A stretch of DNA of 64,000 bases from Stutzerimonas stutzeri (GTDB lineage Bacteria > Pseudomonadota > Gammaproteobacteria > Pseudomonadales > Pseudomonadaceae), in contig NZ_JAMOHY010000002.1 in NCBI RefSeq assembly GCF_024448695.1, forward strand, positions 62,001-126,000, in the 5' to 3' direction. Position 1 is the stretch's first letter. The number at the start of each line of letters is the position of its first letter. The translations under genes were made by a program, and so were the position numbers. Under the pieces are notes generated by a model. It did not search any database and was not told the origin of the DNA. It saw only the letters and a program-made list of their open reading frames with translations. This document shows, piece after piece, positions 805 to 36,391 of this stretch.

Positions 805-1086
805 ATGTTCAAGGTCAACGAATACTTCGACGGCACCGTCAAATCCATCGCCTTCGACATGGCTGAAGGCCCCGCCACCATCGGCGTCATGGCGCCGGGC
901 GAATATGAATTCGGCACTGCTCAGCTGGAAGTCATGCATGTGGTCGCCGGCAGCCTGGACGTCAAACTGCCGGGTAGCGACACCTTTGAAACCTTCGCCA
1001 GCGGCAGCCGCTTCACCGTGCCGGCCAACAGCAAGTTCCAGTTGAAGGTCGCGACCGAAACGGCCTACCTGTGCGAATACCGTTAA
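805..1086 (+). CDS. ppnP: Pyrimidine/purine nucleoside phosphorylase PpnP
   Basis: This 93-residue protein matches the PpnP (formerly YaiE, DUF1255) family: a small single-domain cupin that performs phosphorolysis of several nucleosides to free base and ribose-1-phosphate in the cytoplasm. Family features visible are the N-terminal [13 protein letters not shown] segment, a [12 protein letters not shown] turn and the final YLCEYR. Length is the usual one. It sits between the DUF486 gene and rimO with its own upstream space, so it is probably transcribed alone. It would serve nucleoside salvage. Confidence 0.92.
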
Positions 1087-1192
1087 ACCCAATCCGCTGA
1101 ATGGAAGGCAGACAGGCCGGGTGAAAAGCTGAAAACCGCTATATAATCCGGCGCCATTTTTTCCCAGCTGTATCACCGAGGCCCGGCCTGTC

Positions 1193-2518: not shown

Positions 2519-2537
2519 CCGCCTCACCGCTCAAAAG

Positions 2538-2562
2538 AAGCCCCGCTCATGCGGGGCTTTTT
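2538..2562 (+). terminator. Rho-independent terminator of rimO
   Basis: AAGCCCCGC, a TCAT loop and GCGGGGC are followed by a run of five T, 20 bases after the rimO stop codon. Confidence 0.92.
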
Positions 2563-3299
2563 CATGCTCGGTCGAGCGGGCCAAGCATCCCTCCATCCAC
2601 GGCAGCCTTCTTCGCAGCACCAATATATTTCGGCGTACCACTCGGTTGCTCAGGAAGGCCCAACCTCGGGCACCATCTCCGACGGATAGCGATACTTGTG
2701 AAATCGAGTGAATGCCTCACCACTTCGGATAGACAATTTTGGTACGAATCGAATAATGTCGAAGGCAAATCTGCTCACGCACCTGATGGAGCAGCCTCGG
2801 CTTAACATCCATACCGCTATTGCCACTTGATATATGTCAAATATTTTTATGTGCTTTGCAGGCTGACCAGGACATTCATAAATGTCGGGATACTTTACGC
2901 GACACATGCAACGCAATTCTTTCGACATGTATTTTGTTTATCTTTTAAAGCATGCAATATCCAGCGCATTGAGCGGATTTTATTATGACTGACTCTCCCC
3001 ACCCAAAGAGCAGATTGATAAACATGGATCTTTGATAACTAAAAACGGAGCAACACTGGAGTGCCCAGTAAAAACCACACCAGAAAAATACTGCCCACCA
3101 GAATTACGAATTATGCGAAGACGAATAGTGTACAGCAGCGGGGATAACAAAATTCTATTAATTTCAGTAGTAAAAAATTCTGAAAGATCGAAAAGAACTC
3201 TGAAAAGCTAAACTGCTGGCCTGCGCTGATGCGCCTGAATATTTGCTTCGCTCACTGGAACATGGTTGTTACTCCAATATTTAAAAATGAGTAGTCCCG
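2563..3299. other. A/T-rich gap with only cryptic short open frames
   Basis: About 735 bases with no recognisable gene and clearly more A/T than the flanking rimO and trpB regions. The plus strand at 2993-3211 stays open for 72 codons in one frame and gives a basic, non-random-looking peptide (CPPELRIMRRRIVYSSG, ending KNSERSKRTLKS). It has no ATG near its start; a TTG at 3032 is the best candidate. Minus-strand frames at 2562-2768 and 2650-2928 are also open but resemble nothing I know. This could be a decayed or foreign gene remnant. The last ~60 bases probably hold the promoter of the following diguanylate cyclase. Confidence 0.4.
3032..3211 (+). CDS. Unrecognised small ORF (possible gene remnant)
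   Basis: This reading frame of 59 codons would start at TTG 3032 and end at TAA 3209. It is open further upstream to 2993 without an alternative start. The predicted peptide is Lys/Arg-rich with two cysteines and composition quite unlike the shadows of GC-rich genes. No ribosome site is convincing. It may be the 3' end of a truncated gene; I do not recognise a family. Confidence 0.22.
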   Translation: MITKNGATLECPVKTTPEKYCPPELRIMRRRIVYSSGDNKILLISVVKNSERSKRTLKS

Positions 3300-4754
3300 A
3301 TGAAACCAGCTGCTTCTCAACCGAACCACCATCAAGAAATTCGCGCACTGTTTGACGAGTATATTGAGCTTTACGCTTCACGCGATGATCGGCTTACAGC
3401 ACTTTTCAGCGAAGACTTCAGCGGTTATACCGCCGGTGGTCGTATTATGGTTACGGATCGCGACCAGTGGGTAAAAGTCATTCTTCAGGATTTTTCCGAA
3501 GTACCGGAGCGCATACGCATCGAAATGCGCGATATTTCGATGCAGAATCTAACAAAGCAGGTCGTCGCTGTGACGGCCTTTTTCCACATTCACCTGTCGG
3601 TTCCTGAGCCGGACTTTTCGCAAGAAGTCGTGCGATTACATCTGGTTTTTCGCCTCGAAGATGAAGTCTGGAAGATTGTCCACAGTGGCACTTCGTTTCC
3701 CTATCATCTGGTACAGAATGAAGAAGTTTATCCACTCAATAATCTGCAGGAGCGTAACCGGGCACTTGAAGCTCTGGTTGCAGAGCGCACCCTTGCGCTG
3801 AATGAAAGTGAAGCTTTCTATCGACTGCTTACCGAAGACACCCTGGATGTGCTGTGGCGGACTGATGACGAACTCAAGATCACCTATATCAGTCCGTCAG
3901 ATGAGCGTTTTCGTGGTTTCAGGGCAGACGAGGTGATCGGCCATCATGTATTTGAATTATTCAATGAAGAAGGCACCGTCATCGTTACCGAGGCATGGCG
4001 CAAGCGACAGGAAGCCGAACGGGAAGGAAAAGATCTTGGCTTTGTCAGTTTTGATGTCCCTCACCGCTGCAAAGACGGCAGCATAATTTGGGGAGAAGTA
4101 TTTTCAAAGGCAGTGCGGGACGAACACGGAAAAATCACCGGATTTCACGGCATCACACGGGAAATCACCAAGCGTAAGCAGCTGCAGGACCAGATACGGC
4201 AACTGGCGTTCTATGACACGCTCACCAAGCTCCCCAACCGCCGCTTGCTTATCGACCGATTGAACCAGACGCAGGCCAGCAGCAAGCGCACCGGCAAACA
4301 CGGGGCCCTGATGTTTGTCGATCTGGATAACTTCAAGCCATTGAATGACCAATACGGGCATTTTGCCGGCGACCTGTTGCTGATTGAAGTGGCAAACCGG
4401 CTTACAAGCTGTCTACGCGAAATGGATTCGGTAGCCCGTTTCGGGGGTGATGAGTTTGTGGTGTTGCTGGGTGAGCTGGCGACTGATCATGAGCAATCCA
4501 TTGCCCATGCGAAGGCCGTTGCAGAAAAGATCAGGGTCAGGTTATCCGATACCTACCAATTGAACGTCACGCGGGAGGGTGAAGCGGAGAGCATCATCGA
4601 ACACCGTTGTTCGGCAAGTATTGGCGTGTTTGTGTTTCTGGGTCATGACGTCAGTACGGATGAAATTTTGAAATGCGCAGATAAGGCTATGTATCAAGCC
4701 AAAGCCGCATCGCGAAATACGGTCCGGTTTTATGAAGCAGAAGAACAGACCTGA
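3300..4754 (+). CDS. Diguanylate cyclase with NTF2-like and PAS domains
   Basis: This 484-residue protein makes c-di-GMP from two GTP. Residues ~10-135 look like a SnoaL/NTF2-like domain (EIRALFDEYIELYASRD). A short coiled-coil linker leads to a PAS domain with PAC segment (~170-290), then a GGDEF domain (~315-480). The active site GGDEF is at residues 382-386, preceded exactly five residues upstream by the RxxD product-inhibition site (REMD), so it should be catalytic and feedback-inhibited. No membrane segment or signal peptide is seen, so sensing is cytoplasmic. The start ATG has only a weak ribosome site. Base composition is less GC-rich than its neighbours, suggesting transfer together with the A/T-rich gap upstream. 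Confidence 0.9.
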   Translation: MKPAASQPNHHQEIRALFDEYIELYASRDDRLTALFSEDFSGYTAGGRIMVTDRDQWVKVILQDFSEVPERIRIEMRDISMQNLTKQVVAVTAFFHIHLSVPEPDFSQEVVRLHLVFRLEDEVWKIVHSGTSFPYHLVQNEEVYPLNNLQERNRALEALVAERTLALNESEAFYRLLTEDTLDVLWRTDDELKITYISPSDERFRGFRADEVIGHHVFELFNEEGTVIVTEAWRKRQEAEREGKDLGFVSFDVPHRCKDGSIIWGEVFSKAVRDEHGKITGFHGITREITKRKQLQDQIRQLAFYDTLTKLPNRRLLIDRLNQTQASSKRTGKHGALMFVDLDNFKPLNDQYGHFAGDLLLIEVANRLTSCLREMDSVARFGGDEFVVLLGELATDHEQSIAHAKAVAEKIRVRLSDTYQLNVTREGEAESIIEHRCSASIGVFVFLGHDVSTDEILKCADKAMYQAKAASRNTVRFYEAEEQT

Positions 4755-4919
4755 TCCAGACCAACCGACGTTCACTCCTGAATTCTTACTCCGCTTGACG
4801 CAAGGCAATCATGCACAGTAACCACGCACTCTTTTGAAGCTGCGACCACCGCATGATTCCTGACGGCCATGGCAATGGGTAAGATGCCGCATCGCCTGAC
4901 CCTCCGATGGAATCCCACC

Positions 4920-6128
4920 ATGAGCAATACCCTCGATTTCGCCCCCATGCCCGATGCCCAGGGCTATTTCGGTCCTTACGGCGGTCAGTTGGTGCCGCCG
5001 CACCTGAAGCAGGCGATGGACGATATCAACCTGGCCTATGAGGAAATCCGCCAGCGCGAGGATTTTCAGCACGAGCTGGCCAGCCTGTTTGCCGACTACG
5101 TCGGTCGCCCTAGCCCTATCTTCCATGCCCGGCGCCTGTCGGAAAAGCTCGGCGGCGCGCAGATCCATCTCAAGCGCGAAGACCTGAACCACACCGGCGC
5201 GCACAAGATCAATCACTGCCTGGGCGAAGCGCTGCTGGCCAGATTCATGGGCAAGAAGAAAGTGATCGCCGAAACCGGTGCCGGCCAGCATGGGGTGGCG
5301 CTCGCCACCGCCTGCGCGCTGGTGGGCATTCCCTGCGAGATCCATATGGGTCAGGTGGATATCGAGAAGGAACACCCCAACGTCACCAAGATGAAGATCC
5401 TCGGCTGCACGCTGGTGCCGGTAACGCGCGGCGCCGCGACCCTCAAGGAAGCGGTGGACAGCGCCTTCGAGGAATACCTCAAGGACCCGCAGAATTTCAT
5501 CTATGCCATCGGTTCGGTGGTCGGCCCGCACCCCTTCCCGAAGATGGTGCGCGACTTCCAGTCCATCATCGGTCGCGAGGCCCGCGAGCAGTTTCTGGGC
5601 AAGCATGGTCGCTTGCCCGACCATGTGGCCGCCTGTGTGGGCGGTGGCTCCAATGCCATGGGTATCTTCACCGCGTTTCTCGGTGACGCAAGCGTTCGCC
5701 TGGTGGGCGTCGAGCCTGCGGGCGAAGGTATCGACAAGCCAGGCCGCCATGCGGCAACCATGTCGGTGGGCAAGCCGGGTGAGCTGCACGGCATGGCCTG
5801 CTACGTGCTGGAAGACGAACAGGGCAACCCGGCGGCAGTGCATTCCATTGCGTCGGGGCTTGATTACCCCGGCGTCGGCCCGCAGCACAGCTACCTGAAG
5901 GATGCCGGTCGCGTGGTCTACCAGTCGGTCACCGACCAGCAGTGTCTGGACGCCTTCATGAGTCTGTCGCGCACCGAAGGCATCATCCCGGCACTGGAAA
6001 GCGCACACGCCGTGGCCTGGGCCATGGCAACCGCGCTGACACTGGGCAAGGATGAGCACATTCTGGTCAACCTGTCCGGTCGCGGCGACAAGGATGCCGA
6101 CTACGTGGCGAAGCTGCTGGGGCTGTAA
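4920..6128 (+). CDS. Stand-alone tryptophan synthase beta-like protein (TrpB family)
   Basis: This is a PLP enzyme of the TrpB family, which condenses indole with serine to give tryptophan. The 402-residue product has the main catalytic signatures: the PLP lysine in [11 protein letters not shown], the catalytic Glu in AETGAGQHG, the phosphate-binding GGGSNAMG loop, [11 protein letters not shown], and LSGRGDKD near the C-terminus. It is divergent from ordinary Pseudomonas TrpB, for example HKINH where HKVNN is usual, and GGQLVPPHL near the start. No trpA or trpI lies nearby; the next gene, seven bases on, is trmO. It may be a second beta subunit for indole salvage. The start at 4920 fits the family N-terminus better than ATG 4869. 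Confidence 0.85.
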
Positions 6129-6134
6129 CGAACC

Positions 6135-6827
6135 ATGCGCCACAGCATCGAACCCATTGGCTATCTGCGGTCCTGTTTCAGGGAGAAGTTCGCCATTCCG
6201 CGTCAGCCTCGACTGGCGCCTGCCGCACGTGGTGTGCTGGAGCTCGTGCCGCCGTTCGACACAGGCGAGGCGGTTGAGGGACTGGAGCAGGTCAGCCATG
6301 TCTGGCTGCTGTTCCTCTTCCACCAGGCGCTGGAGGAAAAACCGCGCCTCAAGGTTCGACCGCCGCGACTGGGCGGCAACCGCATGGTCGGCGTCTTCGC
6401 CACCCGCGCCACGCATCGGCCCAATGGCATCGGTCAATCAGTGGTCAGGCTCGATCAGGTCGAACCAGGGCGCCTGCTGGTGTCTGGTATCGATCTGCTG
6501 GATGGCACGCCGATCATCGACATCAAACCCTACGTGCCCTATGCCGACGCCCTGCCCGAGGCCCGCAACGACATGGCCGCCGATGCGCCCGCCCTGATCG
6601 AGGTGCACTGGAGCGAAAGTGCCCTCGCCCAGGCCCACAGCGAGGCCCTGCGACTGGCCGAGCCGGTGGTGGAGCTGATCGAGCAGTGTCTGGCCCAGGA
6701 CCCGCGCCCGGCGTATCAGAAGCCCGACTCCGAACGACGCTACGGCGCGCAGTTCTGGGATCTCGACGTTCGCTGGCATTACCCCGAAGCCGGGCAAATT
6801 CGCGTACTGGAAGTGGTGCCCGCCTAG
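6135..6827 (+). CDS. trmO: tRNA (N6-threonylcarbamoyladenosine-37) methyltransferase TrmO
   Basis: TrmO (TsaA/YaeB) uses SAM to methylate the t6A base at position 37 of some threonine tRNAs. The 230-residue product carries the family pattern: IEPIGYLRSCFREKFAIPRQP at the start, then HVWLLFLFHQ, RPPRLGGNRMVGVFATRATHRPN (the beta-barrel SAM site), and DIKPYVPYAD. Length is usual. It starts seven bases after the trpB-like stop, so the two are probably co-transcribed, though no functional link between them is evident. Confidence 0.95.
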   Translation: MRHSIEPIGYLRSCFREKFAIPRQPRLAPAARGVLELVPPFDTGEAVEGLEQVSHVWLLFLFHQALEEKPRLKVRPPRLGGNRMVGVFATRATHRPNGIGQSVVRLDQVEPGRLLVSGIDLLDGTPIIDIKPYVPYADALPEARNDMAADAPALIEVHWSESALAQAHSEALRLAEPVVELIEQCLAQDPRPAYQKPDSERRYGAQFWDLDVRWHYPEAGQIRVLEVVPA

Positions 6828-6881
6828 CCCCCTGGTGGAAAAGCCTGCGGCGTTTTCCACCCTACGCCAGCCAAACGGCTT

Positions 6882-9419
6882 TCAGCGTTTCTCAGGTACC
6901 AGCCACAGACGCTGGTTGCCGTACACCTTGTCGATGTTCTGTGCCTTGAACGGGAAGCTCATGTAGCGGCCCTTCATCCACGCCTCGATACCATCGGCAT
7001 AATGCGGGCTGGCCGGGTTGCCGGACTGCCCCGAACTGTTCAGGCCGATCAGCGGCTCGTCACGCCCGAAATCGACAACGATGCGCATGGCCGGAATCAG
7101 CCAGGTATCGAAATCCTGTCCCCAGCGGTAGGCAGAAACATTCAGCGTGCTGTGATCGCCGCCCGCTGGATAGGGGCCGCGATCCAGGTAGTCGCGGATG
7201 GCATTGATGCCGCTGCGCTTGCTGGCCGGCATATAGGGCGCCAACTGGGTGGTGCCGGTAGCCCAGGTGTAGCGGTGCAACTTGCCCCACTGCCAGGCAC
7301 TGCTGTCGCCGCCCAGTTTTGTGCTCAGGTGATCAACTGCCGCCGCCAGGCTACGCGCCAGAATGGTCGGCTTGTCCTCTTTCTGCAGCGTGGTCACATC
7401 ATCCCAATAGGGACTGTCGTCACGTCCAAGCAGATGATCGGCCTGTGCAGAATAGGAGGCGTTGGCGGTCTGCACCAGCGCCTGCCAGGCAGGGCTGTCG
7501 TCCGGACCGAGTTCATCCAGGAAGGTCAGCCGGGCACTTTCGTGGAGGAAGGCCGAATAAAGCGCGGCATCGGCGGATGCCGCGTCCATCACACCATTAA
7601 ATTTCAGCAGCCGCGACAGCGCCATGTGGGCCTTGTCGCGCTCGCTGGCCGGCAACGCCGCGATTGCCTGCTGCAAGGGTTCGCCCATGGACGGCCCCTC
7701 GAACATGGCGGCCAGTTTGGCAGCGAACGGGGTTTTGCGGTCGTACTGCATGGCGATCATGCTGGCGGTGTCATGACGCCCCTGCCCGGCCAGCTCGGCC
7801 ATGCGCTCGGCACGCTCGGGGTAGTACCAGGAATTGGACAGCTGCATACCGTAACCTCGCGGCACCGTGCGCTGGTTGGCGGTGCCCAGCCAGCCTTGTG
7901 TCGGGTCCTGATCGTAGGGATGCAGCATGGGGTCGGCAAAACCATCCCAGTCGTATAACCCGTCCCAGCCCGGCGATGGCAACAGCCCCAGGCCACCACG
8001 GCGATTGGGATAACGCCCGGTAACCTGCCAGCCGATGCCCTGCTCGTCGGCAAACACCATGTTCAGCGCCATGGCGCGGATATCGCGGGTGGCCTCGAAG
8101 GCTTCATCGACATTTTTCGCCCGCGTCAGGTCGAAGAAGGCATCGAGCGACTTGTCCGCTTCCAGCTGGGTAGTCTTCAGCGCCAGCCCATAGCCACTGC
8201 TCAGTTGCTGGGGCTGCAACGGATGCTTGCGCTCGCCCAGCACGCTGTTAAGCAGCGGCCCGTTGCGCGTCTCGTAGATCGTCTCGCGAACGGGGCGCTG
8301 GCCCTTGATGATGAATGTCTCGTGGCGCTCGCGTGCCGCTACCCACTTGCCATCGGCCAGATACTGCAGGCGCCCGTTCTCGCGCCGGACCTTTTCCAGA
8401 AACAGGTCCTGATTGTCGCCCATGACCATGGTCATGCCCCATCCAAGCTTGCCGTTGAAGCCGGCCACCACCGCCGGAACACCCGCGACCGTGACCCCTG
8501 CCGCATTGAATTTTGGCGAGCGGATCTGCACGAAATTCCAGTATGAGGGCATCGACAGCGGCAGATGGGTGTCGTTGGCCATCAGCGGCTTGCCGCTGCG
8601 CGTGCGGCTTCCGGAAATGGCCCAGTTGTTGGAGGCCGCCACACCCAGCATGTTCAACCCGGCGACCTGCGCAGCGGCACGGTCGAGCTCGGCCAGGCCG
8701 GGAATCTGTCCGCTCAGTTGCAAGCCTTCGAGCTTGGCCGCCTCCTCGAAAGGCAGCGGCTCATCGGGATAGGTCGGCAGCAGCCAGGCGAGGTTGTCGC
8801 TGCCGACGCGCTGGGCCAGTATCAGGGCGGCGATTTCCTCCTGCAGGTTAACCGCCAGACCGAAGTTCAACAGGCAGAACACCAGCACCGAATCCTCGGG
8901 CTTCCAGTATTCGGGCGTGTAATCGGTAGCGGCCAGATCCATCGGCAGCTTGTTGCGATGCCTGTACAGGTAGGCGTTGACGCCACGCGCATAGACCTCG
9001 AAGAAGCGCTTCATACGTGGCGAGCTGTCGCGGTAGAGCAGTTCGGCACTCTTGCGCAGATTGACCGCACGCATGAAACGGTCGATCTCCAGCACGCCCG
9101 GCCCGGCCATCTCGGCCAGCCGTCCCTGGGCCATCAGGCGCAGGCTGACCATCTGACTCAGGCGGTCGGTGGCATGTATGTAGCCCAGGCCGAACAGCGC
9201 GTCGTGGAAGGTGCTGGTTTCGATCAGCGGCATACCCAGGGCGTTGCGCCGGATACTGACGCGCTCGGCCAGCCCGGTCAGCGGCTGTACGCCCTGCTTG
9301 GGCGGCAGGCTGTCGCTGTAGCGGCTGTCCAGATAGGCCTGACAGCCCGTCAGACTGACGACAGCGGCAGTGGCGCCGAAAATCAGGCGAACCAGATGAA
9401 ATGGCAGACGCAGTGACAT
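6882..9419 (-). CDS. quiP: Penicillin-acylase family lipoprotein, QuiP-like acyl-homoserine lactone acylase
   Basis: This N-terminal-nucleophile hydrolase of 845 residues resembles P. aeruginosa QuiP, which deacylates long-chain acyl-homoserine lactones. It has a lipoprotein signal with lipobox LTGC (Cys26), then the alpha-chain region, and the autoprocessing/catalytic serine at about Ser263 in ASNNWAISG. The beta chain continues with motifs such as [12 protein letters not shown] chose ATG 9419 because AGGAG lies seven bases upstream and it gives a proper signal peptide; the longer frame to 9590 does not. It should act at the outer membrane or periplasm. Substrate specificity is inferred only. 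No luxI/luxR genes are in the window. Confidence 0.8.
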
Positions 9420-9489
9420 CGACGGCTCCTTTGAGCTGAGCGCAACAGGGACAACATTCAGGATAGAGGGAAAGGCTGAGGTAGCCGAC

Positions 9490-9948
9490 TCAGGCGGCGC
9501 GCCGGGCCAGTGCTTCGTCCAGCAGCCAGCGTGCCGAACGACGTGCAGCAGCCTTGTGCTGCAGTTCAAGAGCGCTGAAATGCGCTTCATGACGGCGACG
9601 CTCAGCTTTGTCCAGAGCCTTCCAGGCGGCGTGGGTCGGCACCTGCGCGGTTGCTTCGTACAACGCCTGGAACACCTCGCAGTGGGGGTCCTGGCTCAGG
9701 TTCGCATCGTAGTTGTCGAGCAATACCTTGATGCGGATCGCCCCTTCGATCAGGGGGAGCTGTTCATCAAGCAGGCTGCTGGCCAGAATCCGCAGGTCCG
9801 CCGCAAGCTCGGCATGCTGTCGAGCCTGCTGCGCTGCCTGCTGCTGTTCGTGACGCCAAACCCTGCGCCACAGATACAGCGCGTAGCCAGCCATCGCCGC
9901 AATCAGCAGCAGGGCGAGGATTGACAGGACAATCGCGAGCGGCGTCAT
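9490..9948 (-). CDS. DUF2489 membrane-anchored protein
   Basis: The 152-residue protein has one N-terminal membrane helix (about residues 4-27) followed by an Arg/Gln-rich coiled-coil-like stretch and a helical cytoplasmic domain. It matches the DUF2489 family of uncharacterised gamma-proteobacterial proteins. The ATG at 9948 places the membrane helix at the very N-terminus; the upstream extension of the frame is low-complexity and lacks a ribosome site. It ends seven bases before the SEC-C gene begins its stop, and the two genes plus the LEA-like lipoprotein gene are likely one minus-strand operon. Function unknown. Confidence 0.75.
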
Positions 9949-9955
9949 CGGCGGC

Positions 9956-10150
9956 TCAGGCTCCGTGGCATTTCTTGAATTTCTTTTCGCTACCGCATGG
10001 GCAGGGGTCGTTGCGACCGACATCCTTCAGCGGATTGCGCACCGGATCATGGCTGTGGTTGCAGTGCGGGCCATGAACATGCCCGTGGCCATGATCATGC
10101 TGATGATCGTGATCGCAGTCGGGACCATGTACATGAGGTTCGTGATTCAT
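9956..10150 (-). CDS. His-rich SEC-C motif metal-binding protein
   Basis: A 64-residue protein with two parts. The N-terminal half is extremely rich in His and Asp, with two copies of an HVHGP(D/H)C(D/N)H motif. The C-terminal half is a canonical SEC-C zinc motif ([17 protein letters not shown]), as in the SecA tail. It probably binds zinc or nickel and may serve as a small metal buffer or adaptor; that is inference. The start ATG at 10150 is preceded by a GGAG-type site. A protein at 26694-26981 ends in almost the same HVHGPDC motif. Confidence 0.82.
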
Positions 10151-10157
10151 CGAGTCG

Positions 10158-10655
10158 CTACTCCGGAATAAAGGTGCCGGGGATTATCTCGCCATTGGTT
10201 GAAATGTGCACCTTCCGTCCCATCAACAGGCCGATTTTCAGCTCGCCGTCCAGACGATAGGCGATGGGCCGATCGGGCTTTTCCAACAAGCGCACGATGT
10301 ACTTCATATGCCGCCATAGGTTGGTGTACACCGGAACTTCGTAATAGTCGAAGCTGTTCGCCGGCACGGTCAGCCAGCCGCTGGATTCGCCACTGGCCAA
10401 CTGGACGTCATTGAGGTGAACGTTATAGCGCAGGCCGCGCACAGGCAGGCTGTGATCGTTGGGATTGTCGATGCGGAAACGCAGCATGAACTGCTGCTCC
10501 AGCAAGCGCGCCTTGATGATCTCGACCTTGGCCAACTGGACTTGCGGGTTCTCGAAATCGCTGCCCAGCCAGGTCGAACAACCCGACAGACCGGTCAGAA
10601 GGCTAAGTAACGCCATCGTTCTAAGTATTTTTATAGTGCGTTCCTGGCAAAGCAT
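10158..10655 (-). CDS. LEA-14/WHy-domain lipoprotein
   Basis: This 165-residue protein has a basic N-terminus, a hydrophobic stretch and a lipobox (LSGC), so it should be a lipoprotein. The mature part is a single LEA type-2/WHy beta-sandwich domain ([24 protein letters not shown] is characteristic), a fold found in desiccation-response and envelope proteins. ATG 10655 is chosen because GGAG lies eight bases upstream; an internal ATG at 10616 is possible but has no ribosome site and would lose the basic n-region. Function in Pseudomonas is unknown. Confidence 0.78.
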
Positions 10656-10761
10656 TCCGGTACTCCAAAGGACGGCCAAGTGTAGCAAGCGTCAAACCGT
10701 CTGCAACGGGCTGGCGCACGAATTTCGCACACCCGCGTTACACCTTGCTGACAGGTTTTTA

Positions 10762-12508
<1,747 letters not shown>

Positions 12509-29290: not shown

Positions 29291-29326
29291 AGCGCGCCTC
29301 GACGGACAGCACGCCCGTCGAGATCC

Positions 29327-29416
29327 GGTGAGGTGTCCGAGCGGTTGAAGGAGCACGCCTGGAAAGTGTGTATACGAGAAATCGTATCGTGGGTTCGAAT
29401 CCCACCCTCACCGCCA
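29327..29416 (+). tRNA. tRNA-Ser (anticodon GGA)
   Basis: Class-II tRNA of 90 bases with encoded CCA. The acceptor stem is GGTGAGG / CCTCACC with discriminator G and CCA at 29414-29416. The anticodon loop CTGGAAA gives GGA (serine, UCC/UCU). A long variable arm and the T-arm GTGGGTTCGAATCCCAC are intact. Its 3' end from 29390 is the attachment core of the element that follows, and the gene remains complete after integration. Confidence 0.95.
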
Positions 29417-29439
29417 CTTTCGAAACTTAAAGCCCTGAA
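29390..29439 (+). repeat. attL: 50-bp direct repeat of the integrated element
   Basis: The segment begins in the T-arm of tRNA-Ser (TGGGTTCGAATCCCACC), runs through its CCA end and on to GCCCTGAA. It recurs at 36342-36391 with a single mismatch (G at 29422, A at 36374). Integration at a tRNA 3' end is typical of tyrosine recombinases. Confidence 0.92.
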
Positions 29440-29464
29440 AACATTGAAGTTTTCGGGGATTTTT
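29433..29464 (+). terminator. Terminator after tRNA-Ser (formed with element DNA)
   Basis: CCCTGAAAAC and GTTTTCGGGG pair with one G-T wobble and are followed by ATTTTTG. The left half belongs to attL; the right half is inside the element. Confidence 0.72.
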
Positions 29465-29476
29465 GTTTTCCCTTTT

Positions 29477-30402
29477 TTAAAGTGTCGAAGAACTGTCGAA
29501 AAGCGGGTTTAGCCGTAAAGCATCCTGCAGATGATCCGGCGACAGGTGCGAATAGCGCATGGTCATAGCCAGCGAGGAATGCCCAAGGATTTTCTGCAAG
29601 GTCAGGATGTTCCCGCCACGTATCACGAAGTGACTCGCGAAGATGTGTCGCAACACGTGTGTAGCTTGCCCAGGTGGCAACCTGATGGACGTAGTTTCGA
29701 GAACCCGGCTAAAAGTCATCATGCAGTTACTGAAAAGCCCATGCCGCCGATAATGCGCGTGCAGCTCCTTTTCCAAATCCGGGCAAATCGGGATCGTCCG
29801 GATTTTCCGGGACTTTGTATTAGCGAAGGTCACCGCACCATTGCGTACCCTTTCAGGCGACAACGCTTGAGCCTCACCCCATCGACCCCCAGTCGCCAGA
29901 CAGACACGCGCCACCAGACCGATACCCGGCGTAGTCGTACGCGCATCAAGCGCATCGAGCAGTTCGGCAATCTGAGGCTGAGATAAGAAACAAATCGGTC
30001 GCTCCTGCAAACGCAACGGGCGCACATTGGCCAGCGGATTCGGATAGTCGATATCACCCAGGCGATGCAGCTCATTGAAAACCGCTTTCAGGTAGCCAAG
30101 GCGATTATTTAGCGACTTGCCATGAACGCCAGCTTCAAGCTGGACGCGCCGGATCTCACAGAACTGGTTACTGGTGAACTTAGTAGCCACCGGATCGCCA
30201 AGATCAGCAGCGAGACGAGCCAGGACAGCTTTTAAACGCTTGCTATCTGCCAAGAGCGGGTTTGACCATTTCGCGCCCGGACCAGCAGACAGCGCAAGCG
30301 CAATCCGATGCGGGGGGCATGCGTTGATAGTTCGGCTTCTGCATAGGTCGCCCCCCTGGCCTTCCATTTACGACGCGGATCATACGGAGCGCTCCTGTTC
30401 AT
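29477..30402 (-). pseudogene. int: Tyrosine integrase (P2-like), frameshifted
   Basis: The intact start is ATG 30402 (MNRSAPYDPRRKWKARG, then ATYAEAELSTHAP). The frame then switches within a run of six G (30312-30317; C on the coding strand) and continues as RIALALSAGPGAKWSN to the stop at 29477. One added base in this run would restore a 308-residue P2-type integrase. The catalytic half is whole: Arg in TGGRWGEAQ, HVLRHIFASHF, LGHSSLAMTMRYSH with the nucleophile tyrosine. It starts with an ATGA overlap on the Arc-like gene. A sequencing error in the homopolymer is possible. Confidence 0.85.
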
Positions 30403-30547
30403 TGGTGCTGGGCAACCTGGGCGAAGGACGACTCCAGGCGGATGACGATTTCGGCGTTCAGGGAGCGCCGTGCAGCCCAGGCGGACCGCTCGTCCTGGGC
30501 GCGGAGTGCAGCATACGCAGCTTGAATTGCTGGTCTGTGCGGCTCAT
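30399..30547 (-). pseudogene. Arc-like DNA-binding protein, frameshifted
   Basis: Reading from ATG 30547 gives MSRTDQQFKLRM, the usual start of Arc/MetJ-type ribbon-helix-helix proteins. After a lost base near 30505-30515 the other frame supplies LRAQDERSAWAARRSLNAEI and VIRLESSFAQ to a stop overlapping the integrase start (CAATGA). One inserted base would give a 49-residue Arc-like protein with the characteristic RSLNAEIV-RLE segment. It was probably a regulator of integrase or excision. Too short to be seen as a single open frame. Confidence 0.72.
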
Positions 30548-30551
30548 TGGT

Positions 30552-30692
30552 TCACCCCGGAAAACGCACCAGGCGGGTATTGCCCAGCTTCACGCTCTCG
30601 ACGGCGCCGGTCCTGACCCAGTTCGCAACCGTTTCCACGGGCACACCGGCCAGAGCGGCGAAGGCGACTTGCGTATAGATAGGAGGATTCAT
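30552..30692 (-). CDS. Small HTH protein (Cox/excisionase-like)
   Basis: An intact 46-residue product starting MNPPIYTQVAFAALAGVPVE and continuing TVANWVRTGAVESVKLGNTR. This is a MerR/AlpA-like helix-turn-helix, as found in phage Cox/Xis regulators. It overlaps the upstream HTH gene by ATGA and ends five bases before the Arc-like start. The order HTH - HTH - Arc-like - integrase suggests one early transcript for excision control. Its DNA target is not known. Confidence 0.7.
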   Translation of the reverse strand: MNPPIYTQVAFAALAGVPVETVANWVRTGAVESVKLGNTRLVRFPG

Positions 30693-30904
30693 GCGGTCCA
30701 CTCCTGCTCCAGCAGCCAGCTACGCAGCAGCGCACTGTTAATCATGCGGCGCTTACCGAGCTTTACGATGGGGATTACGCCCCGGTAGACCCAGGCGCGG
30801 GCCGTGTCGAAGGACAGGCCGTTTCACTCAGCCCGGGGCTCGACGGCTTCCACGTCCTGCTGTGGGGCGATCAGCTTTGAAGGCTCTAGCTCTTCCAGTT
30901 CCAT
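30689..30904 (-). pseudogene. AlpA-like HTH regulator with in-frame stop codon
   Basis: From ATG 30904 the frame reads MELEELEPSKLIAPQQDVEA and on to PRAE, meets TGA at 30826-30824 (codon 27), then continues in the same frame as NGLSFDTARAWVYRGVIPIV, KLGKRRMINSALLRSWLLEQ, ending EWTA and a stop that overlaps the next ATG. The second part is a clear AlpA/excisionase-type HTH. The TGA most simply replaces a TGG (Trp). Full length would be 71 residues. Translation could restart downstream, but no good start lies directly after the stop. Confidence 0.75.
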
Positions 30905-30947
30905 GCTCGTTCCGTCACTATTCGTGGCAATTTATGCATTAATTTAT

Positions 30948-30964
30948 TGACGAATAATTCGTCA
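30948..30964. promoter_or_regulatory. Operator dyad 1 of the element's genetic switch
   Basis: TGACGAATAATTCGTCA is a perfect 17-base palindrome with one central base. It lies in the divergent gap between the excision-type genes (minus) and the small regulator (plus). Confidence 0.75.
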
Positions 30965-30981
30965 CTGAGCGAAATGCTACA

Positions 30982-30996
30982 GACGAATATTTCGTC
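30982..30996. promoter_or_regulatory. Operator dyad 2 of the element's genetic switch
   Basis: GACGAATATTTCGTC repeats the GACGAA/TTCGTC half-sites of dyad 1. Centres are 33 bases apart, about three helical turns, so two bound dimers would lie on the same DNA face. A weaker half-site (ATTCGTG) occurs near 30919-30925. Confidence 0.7.
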
Positions 30997-31019
30997 AGTG
31001 CTTTTTAGAGCATTTGGGA

Positions 31020-31283
31020 ATGATAGAAGAGCGTTTAAGAACGCTTGTCCGGTACATCGGCCCGGCACGCCTCGCCCAAGCTTCGGCGATCAAGAATCGG
31101 CGGCGGTGGCAAACAGTGGCCACAGACTTGAAGGTGAAGACCCGTATTGAGGATATGGAGGAGTTGCTGAAGGCATTTCCTCAGTACGAGCTTTGGCTAT
31201 GGAAAGGAGAAACCGACTCCGCACGCGGACAACTCTCTCCTGATTCTGAAAAAAGCAAAGCAAAGCAAAGCCAACAGAAATAG
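31020..31283 (+). CDS. Small DNA-binding regulator (probable element repressor)
   Basis: An 87-residue basic protein (MIEERLRTLVRYIGPARLAQ, then KNRRRWQTVATDLKVKTRIE, DMEELLKAFPQYELWLWKGE) with a helix-turn-helix-like N-terminal half and a hydrophilic tail. The family is common in Pseudomonas prophages and islands as a repressor-like gene next to the integrase module. It is divergent from the HTH genes with two strong operator dyads between, the layout of a CI/Cro-type switch. A TTG six bases upstream (31014) is an alternative start. The TIR-STAND gene begins 49 bases after its stop and may be co-transcribed, which would tie defence expression to the repressor. Confidence 0.7.
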   Translation: MIEERLRTLVRYIGPARLAQASAIKNRRRWQTVATDLKVKTRIEDMEELLKAFPQYELWLWKGETDSARGQLSPDSEKSKAKQSQQK

Positions 31284-31332
31284 AACATTAAACCCAACAG
31301 CATCCCACTTTTTCATACAAGGACGTTTTCTG

Positions 31333-33885
31333 ATGAGTAAAAGAGTATTCATAAGCTACTCACATAAGGACGAGGCTCATCGCGAGGACTTAGAAGAACA
31401 TCTCACGATGCTAAAGCGTGAGGGAATCATTGAGGTTTGGCACGACCGAAAGATCACAGCCGGTAGCGAGTGGAAGAACGCTATCGACGAAAATCTAGAC
31501 TCTGCTCAAATAACAATTTTTCTAATTAGCCCTAGTTTCTTGGCCTCCGACTATTGCCATGACATCGAACTCAAGCGAGCGCTAGAACGGCACGAATCTG
31601 GACTAACAAAAATAATCTCAATCATCGTACGCGCTTGCAACTGGCAGAGCGCAGGCTTCTCCAAGTTTCAAGCACTCCCAAAAGATGCCAAGCCAGTTAC
31701 GCTTTGGACAGATCGGGACTCTGCCTGGCTTGATGCGGTGCTTGGCTTAAAAAATAATATTTTGGAAACGATAGAAGAAGAAAAAAAAAGCCTTAAGCTT
31801 ATTAGCTCAGAAAATGAAGCCAATACAGTAGTATCGCCAAAACAAGCAGCATGGCTAGATGACACAGAAATTGTTTTAACACACAGAAAAGTAGACAAAG
31901 TAAAGCTTGGCGACATCTATGTTTACCCAGATATAGAACTGGAATCAGAAAATCGGAAAAAGATAGAAATTGAGATAGTGGACTCTGAAAAACACTTAAA
32001 AAAAACCGGCCACTTTCTAGTTTTAGCTGAAGAGCAATCTGGCAAGACATCTTTGCTAAAGCGATTGTTTTCCACCCTTGCGTTAGAAGGAAAACTACCC
32101 GTTTACCTAGACTGTGAAAGTATCAATAAATCCGACCTTGAAAAGGTACTTGAAAAACAGCTATCCGAGCAATATATCAACTTAACGCTCGATCAGTTTC
32201 TAACCTTTCCGGAGAAGGTCATACTACTCGACAATTTAGATCGAATAGGACTTAACAACAAACATAGAAATATTTTTATAAGCCTGGCTTCTGAGAAATT
32301 TGATTACATCATTTCCACATGCCACTCCGCCTTTAACTATATCTCCTCCGAAATTCCTGCACTGTCTTCATTTGAAAGCTGCGAGCTATTGGGACTAGGA
32401 AACTTTAAACGAGAAGAAATAATAAAAAAGTGGATCAGTCTAGGTATTGAAGAGTCTATAGACGAATCCGCTCTCTACTCGAAGTGTGATGACTTAAAAG
32501 CTCAACTTAATAGCATTATCAAAAAAAATATCGTCCCACCTAAGCCGATATACGTACTGATGATAATGCAAATGTTTGAAGCTTATGCTCAGCAAAACAT
32601 TGAGCTTACCTCTTACGGCCACTGCTACCAGCAATTAATTTATCAGTCCTTAGAAAAAGCCAAGATAAACGGTAAGGACTACGAAAAATACCTTAACGTG
32701 CTCACCGAGCTAGCCTGGTGTATTTTTGTTAACGGGGGAAATCTAAACTCATTGGAAATTGATACTTTCTTTGATGATTACGGAAAGCTCTATCTTTCGG
32801 TCAACAAAGAAGAAATCTTAAGGAAGCTAATTTCACATTCAATTTTGACCGAAAAGCAAGGCAAGATCGGCTTTAAGTACCCTTACATATATTATTTCTT
32901 TGCGGGCAAAAAGTTTGCCGAAGGCTATACCGAAATTGAACTAGTCCAAAATAAATTGGAAAGCTTGTTGGCCGACCTGCACAGGGAAGACTATGCAAAC
33001 ATTCTTATCTTTATAACCCACCACACCAAAGACCCCTGGGTACTTAAAAAAATAAAGTCGGTACTCTCAGAACTATTTAAAGACCATAGCAAAGCAACTC
33101 TAACAAAAGAACAACTGAGCTTTATGGACGATTTCATGAAGCTTATTCCAGACCTGGTTCTTGAGCAACGAGAAATCCAGCAAGAGCGAGACGACCAGAA
33201 TCGAGCGCTGGATAAGATTGAGCGCTGCGAAAACGAGGAAGGCATTGAAAACCCTCCAGACATATTAGCCAATATAAATAAATCATTCAAAGGAATGGAG
33301 ATCGCCGGCCAAATCATCAGGAACAGGCATGCAACAATGACAAGAACAGCGCTATATGACTTGGCGTCAAGCGGAACAGCAACTGGGCTTCGCTTCCTAG
33401 ATTACTTCATTAAAATATCTGACAGCTCTAAGAACGAGATTATAAAATTTATTGGACAAGTGCTCGCTCAGCACCCAGATTTAACAAACAGACAAGTTCA
33501 GGAGCACGCAGAGGCAACCTACCTCCACCTAACCTACGGAGTAATCAATGGCGTAATTCGCAAAATTGCTTACTCTATAGGTTCAAAAGAGGCCCAGGAA
33601 GTTTACAAAGCACTTGAGGATGCTGAAGACACGCCCGCGTACACCCTTATAAATCAAGCTGTAGAACTACAATTTAAGCGAGTCCTTAATATATCATCAA
33701 TCGAGAAGACGACTGAGCGCTTAAAAAACAGTCCTGTATGCTTAAGAATACTCAAGGAAATGATCATTCAACACATCTATATGTTCCCAGTAGAATACAA
33801 ACAAAAACAGCAGCTTTCTGAATTATTAGATATTTCAGTGCAAGGCCAACGCTTTATGGACAGGAAAAAGCTTGGCAAAGGATAG
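31333..33885 (+). CDS. TIR domain - STAND NTPase protein (probable anti-phage defence)
   Basis: An 850-residue protein. Residues 1-135 form a TIR domain: VFISYSHKDE at the start, WHDRKITAGSEW, then SPSFLASDYCHDIEL, with Glu79 in the position of the NAD-cleaving glutamate. Residues ~215-480 are a STAND/NACHT-like NTPase: a Walker A-type loop AEEQSGKTS at 232-240 (Ala instead of the first Gly), Walker B VILLDNLD at 296-303, and a LLGLGNFKREEIIKKW segment. A winged-helix-like GFKYPYIYYFFAGKKFAEGY follows at ~520-540, then an all-helical C-terminal region, perhaps the sensor. By analogy with TIR-STAND systems, phage sensing would drive oligomerisation and NAD+ depletion; this is inference. The gene is A/T-rich. 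Confidence 0.85.
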   Translation: MSKRVFISYSHKDEAHREDLEEHLTMLKREGIIEVWHDRKITAGSEWKNAIDENLDSAQITIFLISPSFLASDYCHDIELKRALERHESGLTKIISIIVRACNWQSAGFSKFQALPKDAKPVTLWTDRDSAWLDAVLGLKNNILETIEEEKKSLKLISSENEANTVVSPKQAAWLDDTEIVLTHRKVDKVKLGDIYVYPDIELESENRKKIEIEIVDSEKHLKKTGHFLVLAEEQSGKTSLLKRLFSTLALEGKLPVYLDCESINKSDLEKVLEKQLSEQYINLTLDQFLTFPEKVILLDNLDRIGLNNKHRNIFISLASEKFDYIISTCHSAFNYISSEIPALSSFESCELLGLGNFKREEIIKKWISLGIEESIDESALYSKCDDLKAQLNSIIKKNIVPPKPIYVLMIMQMFEAYAQQNIELTSYGHCYQQLIYQSLEKAKINGKDYEKYLNVLTELAWCIFVNGGNLNSLEIDTFFDDYGKLYLSVNKEEILRKLISHSILTEKQGKIGFKYPYIYYFFAGKKFAEGYTEIELVQNKLESLLADLHREDYANILIFITHHTKDPWVLKKIKSVLSELFKDHSKATLTKEQLSFMDDFMKLIPDLVLEQREIQQERDDQNRALDKIERCENEEGIENPPDILANINKSFKGMEIAGQIIRNRHATMTRTALYDLASSGTATGLRFLDYFIKISDSSKNEIIKFIGQVLAQHPDLTNRQVQEHAEATYLHLTYGVINGVIRKIAYSIGSKEAQEVYKALEDAEDTPAYTLINQAVELQFKRVLNISSIEKTTERLKNSPVCLRILKEMIIQHIYMFPVEYKQKQQLSELLDISVQGQRFMDRKKLGKG

Positions 33886-33955
33886 GATAGAACTTCATAT
33901 ATAAAATGTAAGACCAAAAGCGAATTTTTAACGCTTTCAATGCAAGGATGCATCT

Positions 33956-34663
33956 ATGAGATCAGATTGGGATGATGCACCGGAGTATCTACGCAACAGA
34001 AAGAAACAGAGCCCCTGGCAGTTCCTGGCGATCCTGGGTATCGGTTCAGCGGTGCTTTCGGCACTTGCATTTACGTTCGGCAAGCCGGCCGTACTGGACG
34101 TAAAGCAGATCAAGCAAGGCATTCATGTCGGCGGCAAGCCTTGGTTTAACCAAGAGCCAGAACAGCCCATGCAGCCGGTTAGCCAGCCAGCCGTTGCAAG
34201 CTACGAAGCCCCAGCAGCAGAGCCAGCACCCGCGCACCAGCGACAATTGAGCCAGGAAGAAATCGAATGGTTCGAAGAAGGCACCGCGCGAGCGATACAG
34301 CAGCGGCAAACATCATTCAACGATAACAACTACACGCCCCACCCCGTCACCAACACGATGCAGCCGCCCCCAACCCGCTACTACGCAGCCAACTCCACCA
34401 ACAGCACGCAAAAGCGCTCCGTTTCCCGACAGACTCACGTCAGCAACTGGAGCTGGGAGAACGGCCACAACAAACAGCGCATCAGAGGTCAGCTTGAGTG
34501 GACAGTGGCAAATGGCCAGATCGACTACAACAGCGTGTGCCAAAACTACAAACGCGGCTCGCTGATCTACCGCGACTGCCGTAAAGGGGCAAAGGTCGCT
34601 TTTAAACAAATATGCAATCGTTACCAACCGGCATGTGCAGCAGAAAATAACTTCATGCCATAA
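33956..34663 (+). CDS. Membrane-anchored hypothetical protein with Cys-rich C-terminal domain
   Basis: A 235-residue protein with a cytoplasmic basic N-terminus, one membrane helix (~residues 20-42), a Pro/Gln/Ala-rich linker, and a C-terminal domain (~150-235) with four cysteines in VCQNYKRG, YRDCRKGAK, KQICNRYQPAC. These probably form disulfides in the periplasm. I do not recognise a named domain; similar proteins occur in Pseudomonas accessory regions. AAGG lies eight bases before ATG 33956. It begins 70 bases after the TIR-STAND stop and could be a partner or separate cargo. Confidence 0.7.
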   Translation: MRSDWDDAPEYLRNRKKQSPWQFLAILGIGSAVLSALAFTFGKPAVLDVKQIKQGIHVGGKPWFNQEPEQPMQPVSQPAVASYEAPAAEPAPAHQRQLSQEEIEWFEEGTARAIQQRQTSFNDNNYTPHPVTNTMQPPPTRYYAANSTNSTQKRSVSRQTHVSNWSWENGHNKQRIRGQLEWTVANGQIDYNSVCQNYKRGSLIYRDCRKGAKVAFKQICNRYQPACAAENNFMP

Positions 34664-34714
34664 CCACGGTATCGTCAGTCGCTAGAGCTTTGTTAAAGAC
34701 ATTTAGGAAATTCG

Positions 34715-35500
34715 ATGGATGTTTTAGGCTGGATTTTTGTTATCGGAATCGTTTTCTTCTTACTCAGCATCGGTAAGAGCAAATCCAAGAACAAGCGCTA
34801 CAAAAGGACTACACTCAGGGTTTGGGGAGAGCCGGCACAAAAGCAAGAGCCAACCGTTGGTTCACGCCCCACCCACCAGCCCGCCCCACAACAGCTAAAG
34901 CAGGCTTCACAGCCTAATCGGAAAATCGCTTCTGACGGATTCCGGTATGACCCCGACGGCGAATGGCCGTTTCAGAAACGGAAGTTGATAACCGCAACTG
35001 AGACAGTCCTGTTCGAGCGACTGCGGCAAGCATTACCGAATCACTACATCTTCACCCAAGTGCAGCTATCGCAACTGGTAGCAATAAAGAAGGGCCATAG
35101 CTTCAAAATGTGGTTTTCCCGCATCAGCCAGATGAGCGTTGATTTCGTGATCGCGGATGAGTTTTTAAATACGGTTGCCGCAGTCGAGCTGGACGACAAA
35201 TCACACTATTCAGATGAGGACCGGCATAAAGCCGATGCAAAGAAAGACAAAGTTCTAACGGCTGCTGGCATTCGTGTTATTCGCTGGCGTTGCGAGATCA
35301 TGCCATCAGCTGAGCAGATCGCCCTGGCGTTCCCCGAGTGCAAAACAGCGCTGCAGCCTTCGCAACAAGCAGAGCGGGAGCCAAGCGCCACGATGGTGGA
35401 GGCGATAGCCGAACTGGACAGCGCAGTAAGCCAGCGCACCGAGAGCATCGCGCACATTCTGCCGCAAACGCCAAGCGAGCCACACCAACGGGCTACCTAG
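34715..35500 (+). CDS. DUF2726 protein with N-terminal membrane anchor
   Basis: A 261-residue protein. Residues 1-20 form a membrane helix (WIFVIGIVFFLLSIG), followed by a basic linker, then a DUF2726 domain (~85-215) with the usual TATETVLFERLRQALP, VDFVIADEFLNTVAAVELDD, and AAGIRVIRWRCEIMP. DUF2726 resembles the nuclease-related PD-(D/E)XK fold; the acidic residues in D-FVI...VELDD and the nearby Lys residues are compatible with a metal site, though nuclease activity is not shown. Its C-terminal tail is low-complexity. It is 51 bases after the membrane protein gene. Confidence 0.78.
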   Translation: MDVLGWIFVIGIVFFLLSIGKSKSKNKRYKRTTLRVWGEPAQKQEPTVGSRPTHQPAPQQLKQASQPNRKIASDGFRYDPDGEWPFQKRKLITATETVLFERLRQALPNHYIFTQVQLSQLVAIKKGHSFKMWFSRISQMSVDFVIADEFLNTVAAVELDDKSHYSDEDRHKADAKKDKVLTAAGIRVIRWRCEIMPSAEQIALAFPECKTALQPSQQAEREPSATMVEAIAELDSAVSQRTESIAHILPQTPSEPHQRAT

Positions 35501-35519
35501 CGCATCGATTGCCAAAATA

Positions 35520-35532
35520 AACCTAATAGGTT
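35520..35532. promoter_or_regulatory. MqsA operator palindrome
   Basis: AACCT-AAT-AGGTT matches the known mqsRA operator, in which MqsA binds ACCT-N2-4-AGGT palindromes. It ends 11 bases before the mqsR start, fitting autorepression by antitoxin or complex. Confidence 0.85.
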
Positions 35533-35543
35533 ATTTTCTTTCC

Positions 35544-35840
35544 ATGGAAAAGCGCAGACCTCACTTCAAGCTGCCATTGGTGAAACAGGCTATTGTCGAG
35601 CAGCGTTATCGCTTCACCCGCGTAGCACTGGAAGGCGGTTCGGAGCTGGGACTAGACGAGGCCGGTATGCTGGCCGTTATCAATGCCCTGAGCAGTCGCG
35701 ACTTTTTCAAGAGCATGACCACCTATGCGGATCATACGGCCTGGCAGGATGTTTACCGGCCCTTCACTGAAGCTGGGCAGGTCTACCTGAAGTTCACGCT
35801 GGTGGCCGATCTGCTGATTGTTTCCTTCAAGGAGAAGTGA
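35544..35840 (+). CDS. mqsR: MqsR toxin (GCU-specific mRNA interferase)
   Basis: MqsR is a RelE-fold ribonuclease that cuts mRNA at GCU sites and causes growth arrest. The 98-residue product has the family pattern RRPHFKLPLVKQAIVEQ near the start, LDEAGMLAVINALSSRDFFKSMTTYADHTAWQDVYRP, then LVADLLIVSFKEK. Length is standard. As usual for this system, the toxin gene precedes the antitoxin and they overlap at the mqsR stop. A clear Shine-Dalgarno is absent, which may keep toxin synthesis low. Confidence 0.95.
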   Translation: MEKRRPHFKLPLVKQAIVEQRYRFTRVALEGGSELGLDEAGMLAVINALSSRDFFKSMTTYADHTAWQDVYRPFTEAGQVYLKFTLVADLLIVSFKEK

Positions 35841-35842
35841 CC

Positions 35843-36244
35843 ATGAAATGTCCGGTTTGTGGCCAGGCTGAACTGGTCCATGACACCCGTAACCTGCCCT
35901 TTACCTACAAGGGCCAGACCACCGAGATTGCCGACGTAACGGCAGACTGGTGCGATGCCTGCGGCGAGTGCCTGACAGGCCCTGGCGAAAGCGACCGCGT
36001 AATGAAGGCAATGACCGAGTTCCGCCAGCAGGTGAATGCCCAGGGCGGTAGCCAGGAGCTGATTCGCACCGTTCGCAAGCAGTTGCATTTAAGCCAGCGC
36101 GAAGCGGCTGAGCTGTTCGGTGGCGGACCCAATGCTTTCTCCCGTTACGAGCGGGGCAGCACGGAAGCACCACAGCCTTTAGTGCAACTGTTCAAAATCC
36201 TGGGGCGCCATCCCGAGCTGATCAAGGAATTGCGGACCAACTAG
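35843..36244 (+). CDS. mqsA: MqsA antitoxin
   Basis: MqsA binds MqsR through an N-terminal zinc domain and DNA through a C-terminal HTH. The 133-residue product has the zinc ligands CPVC (Cys3, Cys6) and CDAC (near residue 37-40), and an XRE-type HTH in LSQREAAELFGGGPNAFSRYERG. GGAG lies eight bases before the ATG at 35843. It is the last gene before attR, and it may stabilise the element by addiction. Confidence 0.96.
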   Translation: MKCPVCGQAELVHDTRNLPFTYKGQTTEIADVTADWCDACGECLTGPGESDRVMKAMTEFRQQVNAQGGSQELIRTVRKQLHLSQREAAELFGGGPNAFSRYERGSTEAPQPLVQLFKILGRHPELIKELRTN

Positions 36245-36341
36245 GTGTCGAAATCATTGTGACGAACTGAGACGAAACGAGCCGCCATGCTGGCTGGAAA
36301 GCGCGTGAGCGGTATTTCGATGGAACGAAACCCTGAAAAAT
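36245..36341. other. Right arm of the element between mqsA and attR
   Basis: No gene. Two GACGAA motifs occur with exact 10-base spacing at 36261 and 36271 (GACGAACTGA GACGAAACGA), possible arm-type sites for integrase or the excision regulators. Confidence 0.4.
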
Positions 36342-36391
36342 TGGGTTCGAATCCCACCCTCACCGCCACTTTCAAAACTTAAAGCCCTGAA
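36342..36391 (+). repeat. attR: 50-bp direct repeat of the integrated element
   Basis: This copy of the tRNA-Ser 3' end differs from 29390-29439 at one base. It marks the right boundary; chromosomal sequence resumes with the original tRNA terminator. Confidence 0.92.

Follow-up and report, generated by a model that had tools for sequence, protein, structure and literature searches.

Is the compact, defence-bearing island beside a tRNA-Ser(GGA) gene of Stutzerimonas stutzeri a mobile element in its own right, or is it what remains of a larger one? We analysed a window of 64,000 nucleotides around this gene (assembly GCF_024448695.1, contig NZ_JAMOHY010000002.1, positions 62,001 to 126,000) from a genome of 3.70 Mb in 63 contigs, coded here as G000; other genomes carry G numbers, and the loci and contigs compared carry L numbers. 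A sequence-only reading of this DNA had reported two 50-bp repeats starting in the tRNA T-arm and an interior of unrelated composition, and both observations hold, as attL and attR are identical at 49 of 50 positions with a start-to-start distance of 6,952 bp, and G+C is 0.38-0.41 over the gene of a TIR-STAND protein against mostly 0.55-0.62 in the flanks. Its listing of the cargo (TIR-STAND, a membrane protein, DUF2726 and mqsRA) was likewise supported by Pfam matches and by one hydrophobic helix predicted in a 235-aa protein, termed E_235 here. However, its proposal of a minimal satellite or cargo element of an undescribed family does not stand, and with a probability of roughly 0.88 the element is a gutted prophage of the Pf type (Inoviridae) at tRNA-Ser(GGA), which appears to have retained a repressor and likely defence cargo.

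The left arm is that of a Pf-type inovirus. A blastn search of the whole element against phage records retrieved Pf phages, of which PfAC02b has the gene order integrase, rep, Zot, Ace, coat, helix-destabilising protein, Arc/DUF5447 and excisionase on one side and repressor, a small open reading frame (ORF), a 232-aa protein and Gabija on the other. The order and strand of integrase, xis, Arc/DUF5447 and repressor in the window agree with this, and the features of such a prophage are present in damaged form: a tyrosine integrase at a tRNA attachment site has lost its N-terminus, xis and repressor are divergent, and Arc and DUF5447 (PflM), beside xis, survive only as pieces of the PfAC02b proteins. 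The xis gene, which was absent from the earlier gene list, bears an in-frame stop when the PfAC02b excisionase is used as query, as in all our statements on it. An integrase had been placed at the left end, and the position of its ORF (29477-30367, minus strand, with a Pfam integrase match) is correct, but the gene is not intact: it aligns with the PfAC02b integrase at 55% from residue 75 onward, with the N-terminal ~74 residues gone. When integrases were searched across 56 Stutzerimonas genomes (E <= 1e-30), 31 genomes matched with 61 rows, and residues 1-35 of the window ORF were aligned by none of the 60 rows besides its own, because that stretch derives from the Arc/DUF5447 region. Between xis and Arc lies a 46-aa gene (in frame at 30555-30692) whose DNA is also conserved among the genus's fuller phages, and its product has only weak helix-turn-helix family matches. 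Pf core proteins (rep, Zot/coat/single-stranded-DNA-binding) gave no significant match in window 29301-31340, and none of the eight element proteins scanned (the 46-aa one re-scanned in frame) matched a replication, coat or conjugation gene, in line with what had been read from the sequence. As judged from its genes, the element is an inovirus remnant that would be unable to act as a functioning Pf member, since the core is missing, and the stop in xis together with the loss of the integrase N-terminus makes self-excision unlikely.

Fuller phages indicate where this core was lost. Viral contigs were fetched with the integrase and with E_235, and among them L238, an 11,073-bp inovirus contig from IMG/VR, has a 35-bp terminal repeat starting with the att core of the window. 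Its integrase is 84% identical to the window's, its excisionase 78%, its E_235 73%, and its MqsR and MqsA 98% and 100%, while its core contains Zot (Pfam E 5e-19), an Ace-like protein (DUF2523 by Pfam), a coat A match and a Rep-type protein that is 94% identical to its G006 counterpart and weakly matches Rep_trans by Pfam. Window 29390-30253 corresponds to L238 1-864, and the window from 30254 onward to L238 from 7317; the L238-only bases between these matches hold rep, Zot, coat and their neighbours. At this point in the window DUF5447 is joined to integrase residue ~75, and no clear microhomology was seen at the junction. Among the 20 loci examined for junction alignments, five (L126, L127, L131, L132, L134; contig ends cut two of these) align unbroken with window 30920-30254 at 86-88%, where the alignment stops, and matches to nine more (L115, L116, L122-L125, L128-L130) end at 30253 or 30254; L117 and L118 align in the integrase only, and L119, L120, L121 and L133 gave no alignment. 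By these alignments, a Pf-type prophage lost its core genes, together with the N-terminal part of its integrase, in a large internal deletion. The sequence-only reading had itself allowed that the region could be a fragment of a once larger prophage, the rest of which had been lost, and the junction against fuller phages bears this out.

The right arm is also of phage type. L236, whose Zot is in two pieces, carries E_235, DUF2726 and mqsRA in the window's order behind a core, and DUF2726 follows E_235 in G045 and L235 as well. The mqsR and mqsA genes are adjacent, with both proteins matched over nearly their full length, and nothing notable sets them apart from the MqsRA type II toxin-antitoxin; the pair is phage-borne in L229, L232, L236 and L238, and its DNA in the window is 96.8% identical to that of L238. 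A plasmid search with the whole element gave its best matches in the integrase and mqsRA regions (among the 20 of 133 records listed). E_235 has a single predicted N-terminal hydrophobic helix and aligns at 35% with the 232-aa protein of PfAC02b, and its AlphaFold2 model (mean pLDDT 55.5, pTM 0.30) was too poor for a fold search.

Table 1. Features of the element and its attachment site, in window coordinates.
Feature	Position	Strand	Basis or remark
tRNA-Ser(GGA), attachment site	29327..29416	+	ARAGORN; Rfam tRNA
attL, 50 bp	29390..29439	+	direct repeat; first 31 bp present at both L238 ends
Integrase remnant, corresponding to Pf integrase from residue ~75 to near its end	29477..30253	-	sequence comparison
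Two TGTCGAA copies, 11 bp apart	29483..29500	+	candidate integrase arm sites
Deletion junction	30253..30254	.	L238 carries 6,452 bp here (865-7316)
5' part of DUF5447 (PflM)-like gene and Arc-family gene fragment	30254..30550	-	Pfam assigns the reference protein to DUF5447
Small helix-turn-helix-like gene, 46 aa, between xis and Arc	30552..30692	-	weak HTH_17, below cut-off
xis (excisionase) with in-frame stop	about 30690..30910	-	77% to PfAC02b excisionase
Repressor gene, open frame	31014..31283	+	84% to PfAC02b DNA-binding repressor; phrog_147
TIR-STAND defence-type protein	31333..33885	+	TIR_2, ThsB1, PDC-S60, DS8_antiphage
E_235, 235 aa, accessory right-arm gene of Pf-type phages	33956..34663	+	phrog_7381
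DUF2726 protein, putative nuclease	34715..35500	+	Pfam
mqsR toxin	35544..35840	+	Pfam MqsR
mqsA antitoxin	35837..36244	+	Pfam MqsA
38-bp sequence near attR	36245..36282	+	matched in 12 other genus genomes
attR, 50 bp	36342..36391	+	direct repeat

We compared 30 loci at this tRNA from the 56 genomes, 29 of them from genomes other than G000. Empty tRNA-Ser sites do exist in relatives, with the window's right-flank sequence (rhodanese gene side) less than 1 kb from the tRNA in 15 of the 29, and only L038 among the 29 showed any element match. In G038 (L066, about 3380-4163) the last ~36 bp of the integrase gene are fused to mqsRA at the same tRNA-Ser, which makes an even shorter remnant; no attR was found within the 6.25 kb of sequence examined there. 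Synonymous divergence between the window and G038 was 0.22 for mqsR and 0.61 for mqsA, with dN/dS of 0.08 and 0.04, and because the synonymous values bracket those of two flank genes (0.43, 0.59) they first hinted at descent from one insertion. A single old insertion common to G000 and G038 is nevertheless not demonstrated, as the window mqsRA is nearer to L238 than to G038 (89.9% identical), which is itself equidistant from the window and L238. L236 has a tandem TGTCGAA pair near each of its ends, and L238 has one at its right end, with a single exact copy and one variant at its left; the window has a pair at its left end and a single copy at its right end where L238 has two, and none of five other contigs compared (L202, L231, L234, L235, L239) has two tandem pairs. 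The pairs at 11-bp spacing may be integrase arm sites. In many of the genomes matching the 38-bp stretch next to attR, it is located at the right end of a Pf-type element.

Beyond the genus, integrases 79-81% identical to that of the window lie less than 2 kb from tRNA-Ser(GGA) in L154-L157 (Pseudomonas sp. R-28-1W-6, Pseudomonas sp. UBA2684 (a metagenome-assembled genome), P. peli and P. anguilliseptica). In a short search L155 alone showed a second att copy (26 bp), which was not seen in L154, L156, L157 or L158; right ends may lie outside the sequence, since the flank limit truncates L154 and L156 and the sequence of L157 stops inside the core. The window element differs in its site from the Pf phages of P. 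aeruginosa, for which the accessible part of PMC7549136 lists five sites (Gly, Met, Sec, tmRNA and a direct repeat) without tRNA-Ser, which appears there once, for a Ralstonia phage with a serine-type recombinase. Thus the element shares with Pf-type phages such as PfAC02b and L238 the integrase end, the xis/repressor order, accessory genes beyond the repressor, an E_235-type gene and tRNA attachment, but it lacks their replication and structural core, its integrase is truncated and its xis interrupted. In the accessible parts of the literature on Pf phages at tRNA-Ser, defence-bearing filamentous prophage remnants and inovirus satellites or cargo, we found no account of this pattern.

Core-less forms are frequent in the genus. 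E_235 was found at 27 places in 24 of the 56 genomes (29 rows at E <= 1e-10, with two split genes each counted once), 11 with a rep match within 12 kb, 12 without and four unjudgeable at a contig edge (G028:C19, G027:C166, G028:C18, G022:C209), a count which selects elements retaining the right arm and takes rep as the one core marker. A tRNA gene lies within 5 kb upstream at 11 of the 12 rep-less loci (Gly-CCC at eight; Ser-GGA, Met-CAT and Sec-TCA at one each), while none was seen within this distance in G039. Some rep-less loci have themselves decayed, with E_235 broken in G039, G041 and G043, and rep fragments away from contig ends are also present (G026, G047). Counted from the integrase side, a rep match within 3.5 kb, measured centre to centre, is missing at 11 of 61 places, several of which are integrase fragments. 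In the core-less element of G045, at tRNA-Gly and with an integrase, the junction lies at another point of DUF5447 and at integrase residue ~146, and therefore reflects a separate deletion event. In L155, at tRNA-Ser, rep is reduced to its end and no excisionase was matched, but the integrase is full-length and a repressor is present. As 12 of the 23 resolvable E_235 loci are rep-less and nearly all of these stand at a tRNA gene, filamentous-phage sites seem to give rise to defence islands that persist after the phage is gone.

The source genome also contains a Pf-type prophage at G000:C4 (L085, about 2672-11709) with rep, integrase, xis, a coat match and the start of an E_235-like gene. A true satellite, that is a gutted inovirus form kept mobile by an intact Pf phage, which would provide integrase, excisionase, replication and coat, could find such a helper in this prophage, and the retention of both att copies and the other core-less elements with an integrase (G045 and L155) would suit it. 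We nonetheless consider it highly unlikely, as the window integrase is truncated and xis bears a stop, the co-resident phage's integrase is a different one (52% identity), the right end lacks one of L238's two TGTCGAA copies, and the differing junctions of G045 and the window suggest that the form arises anew rather than spreads. Phage satellites such as phage-inducible chromosomal islands (PICI) and P4-like elements are small, att-flanked and carry defence cargo; the window element differs in deriving by deletion from one phage type, and no hallmark gene of satellites, no helper-hijacking gene and no replication module of its own was found among the eight scanned proteins.

The gene that fits phage descent least well is that of the TIR-STAND protein, which matches TIR_2 at residues 5-122 (E 2e-18) and nSTAND_NTPase4 at 474-524 in Pfam, ThsB1 at 4-147 (E 2e-51), PDC-S60 at 153-844 (E 8e-81) and DS8_antiphage (NF053861) at 146-834, against positions 289-994 of the 994 in the model (E 2e-170). 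Among the 398 genomes of the family sample (E <= 1e-60), three matched including its own, and the full-length relatives in G010 and G086 (67% and 64%; L120 8393-10939 and L121 1088-3631) have no match to Pf reference proteins in the surrounding 19-kb and 12-kb stretches. These relatives and the gene's low G+C would fit cargo gathered at the tRNA independently of the phage, with the phage pieces incidental, but this is still less probable than a satellite, because it accounts for TIR-STAND only: phages carry E_235, DUF2726 and mqsRA in this very order after the repressor region, and the final part of L238 shares 96.6% identity with window 35509-36373. Least credible of all is an active compact element of a new family, which would explain the clean att pair, integrase, regulator and lack of a phage core, and which we dropped because fuller phages carrying the same arms turned up, many of them differing from the window by one deletion junction, with xis interrupted and the integrase truncated in the window.

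Several observations do weigh against descent of the element from a Pf-type prophage as set out here. The window is a mosaic relative to L238, 76.9% identical at the integrase end and 96.6% at the right end, and L238 has no match to window 30401-30685 and 30932-33938, holding there a different type of repressor and a PIN_8 gene, and has no DUF2726. No TIR-STAND relative was found in phage records or viral contigs, the viral-contig search reaching close relatives only, and the window protein scores 568 bits against DS8_antiphage, below the curated cut-off of 790. In addition, the right-hand neighbour in G013 and G038 is an AraC-type gene instead, and that flank therefore has a separate history.

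According to the accessible text of PMC13092281, DS-8 is a validated single-protein defence system whose metallophosphatase and NACHT parts are both required for protection. The window protein covers most of the DS8_antiphage model, which from its name would be the DS-8 of that paper, and it has the STAND/NACHT and C-terminal module, at a score below the cut-off. It differs at its N-terminus, where a TIR domain stands in place of 288 model positions that find no match; these are presumably the metallophosphatase, for which there was no Pfam match in the protein. The likeness to PDC-S60, a candidate system in PADLOC only, begins after the TIR domain; the TIR part itself resembles Thoeris ThsB, but no ThsA was found among the element's scanned proteins. 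The protein thus looks like the NACHT and C-terminal module of DS-8 equipped with a TIR effector.

The position of this gene, between the repressor and E_235, is occupied by varied ORFs in relatives. For a survey of this zone one large ORF per locus was taken between the repressor (or tRNA) and E_235, and 19 of the 20 were scanned. Five had PADLOC matches stronger than 1e-30, namely Drt4 (G006), PDC-M49A (G023), HEC-01A (G050), beta (G046) and RT_IV (G039), the last a retron-type reverse transcriptase judging by its name; weaker matches were to Helicase (G016, 4.5e-27) and REase_II (L154, 1e-13). The other 12 had no PADLOC match at 0.001, and two of these, from G036 and G028, are PIN_8 proteins by Pfam. 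Because the ORFs vary among loci, the zone from repressor to E_235 is, on this comparison, a variable cargo slot, used in part for defence. Elements with the same left arm and different cargo had been predicted, and relatives do carry other cargo here, although the carriers are mostly full phages rather than satellites. The accessible parts of PMC11878078 and PMC11341870 describe Pf phages as carrying defence systems among their accessory genes. In the inovirus contig L234 (9448-11998) two copies of E_235 flank a small ORF, which suggests duplication or recombination around the cargo zone.

The history that best accounts for the locus would begin with a Pf-type phage, recognised by homology, that carried accessory cargo beyond its repressor and used its tyrosine integrase to insert at tRNA-Ser(GGA). 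A deletion, visible in the alignment to fuller phages and probably a single event, would then have taken everything from the interior of DUF5447 to about codon 75 of the integrase, including the ssDNA-binding, coat, Ace, Zot and Rep region, and xis also acquired its stop; the reading frames of the repressor and the cargo are open. The remnant would be incapable of making virions, could probably not excise itself and would remain fixed in place as an island in which the repressor, TIR-STAND, DUF2726 and mqsRA are probably the working parts. By analogy with their families, the repressor may confer immunity to like phages, the STAND part of TIR-STAND may sense phage and its TIR domain deplete NAD+ in abortive infection, and mqsRA may act as the stabilising toxin-antitoxin pair of the island.

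A broader and doubtful extension is that filamentous phages routinely leave defence islands at tRNA genes, the accessory zone from repressor to attR surviving repeated independent loss of the core, and that att-flanked core-less forms, some with a full-length integrase as in L155, can still be mobilised by intact phages sharing the att site and would be inovirus-derived hitchhiking defence elements. The origin of the window element itself is ordinary, that of a gutted prophage, and the points of interest are the frequency of gutted forms that keep their cargo and the TIR version of the DS-8 model, which suggests effector swapping on one sensor module. With about half of the resolvable E_235 loci lacking a nearby rep, the accessory defence zone of Pf phages is seen to outlast the phage, which offers a simple route for the formation of tRNA-side defence islands.

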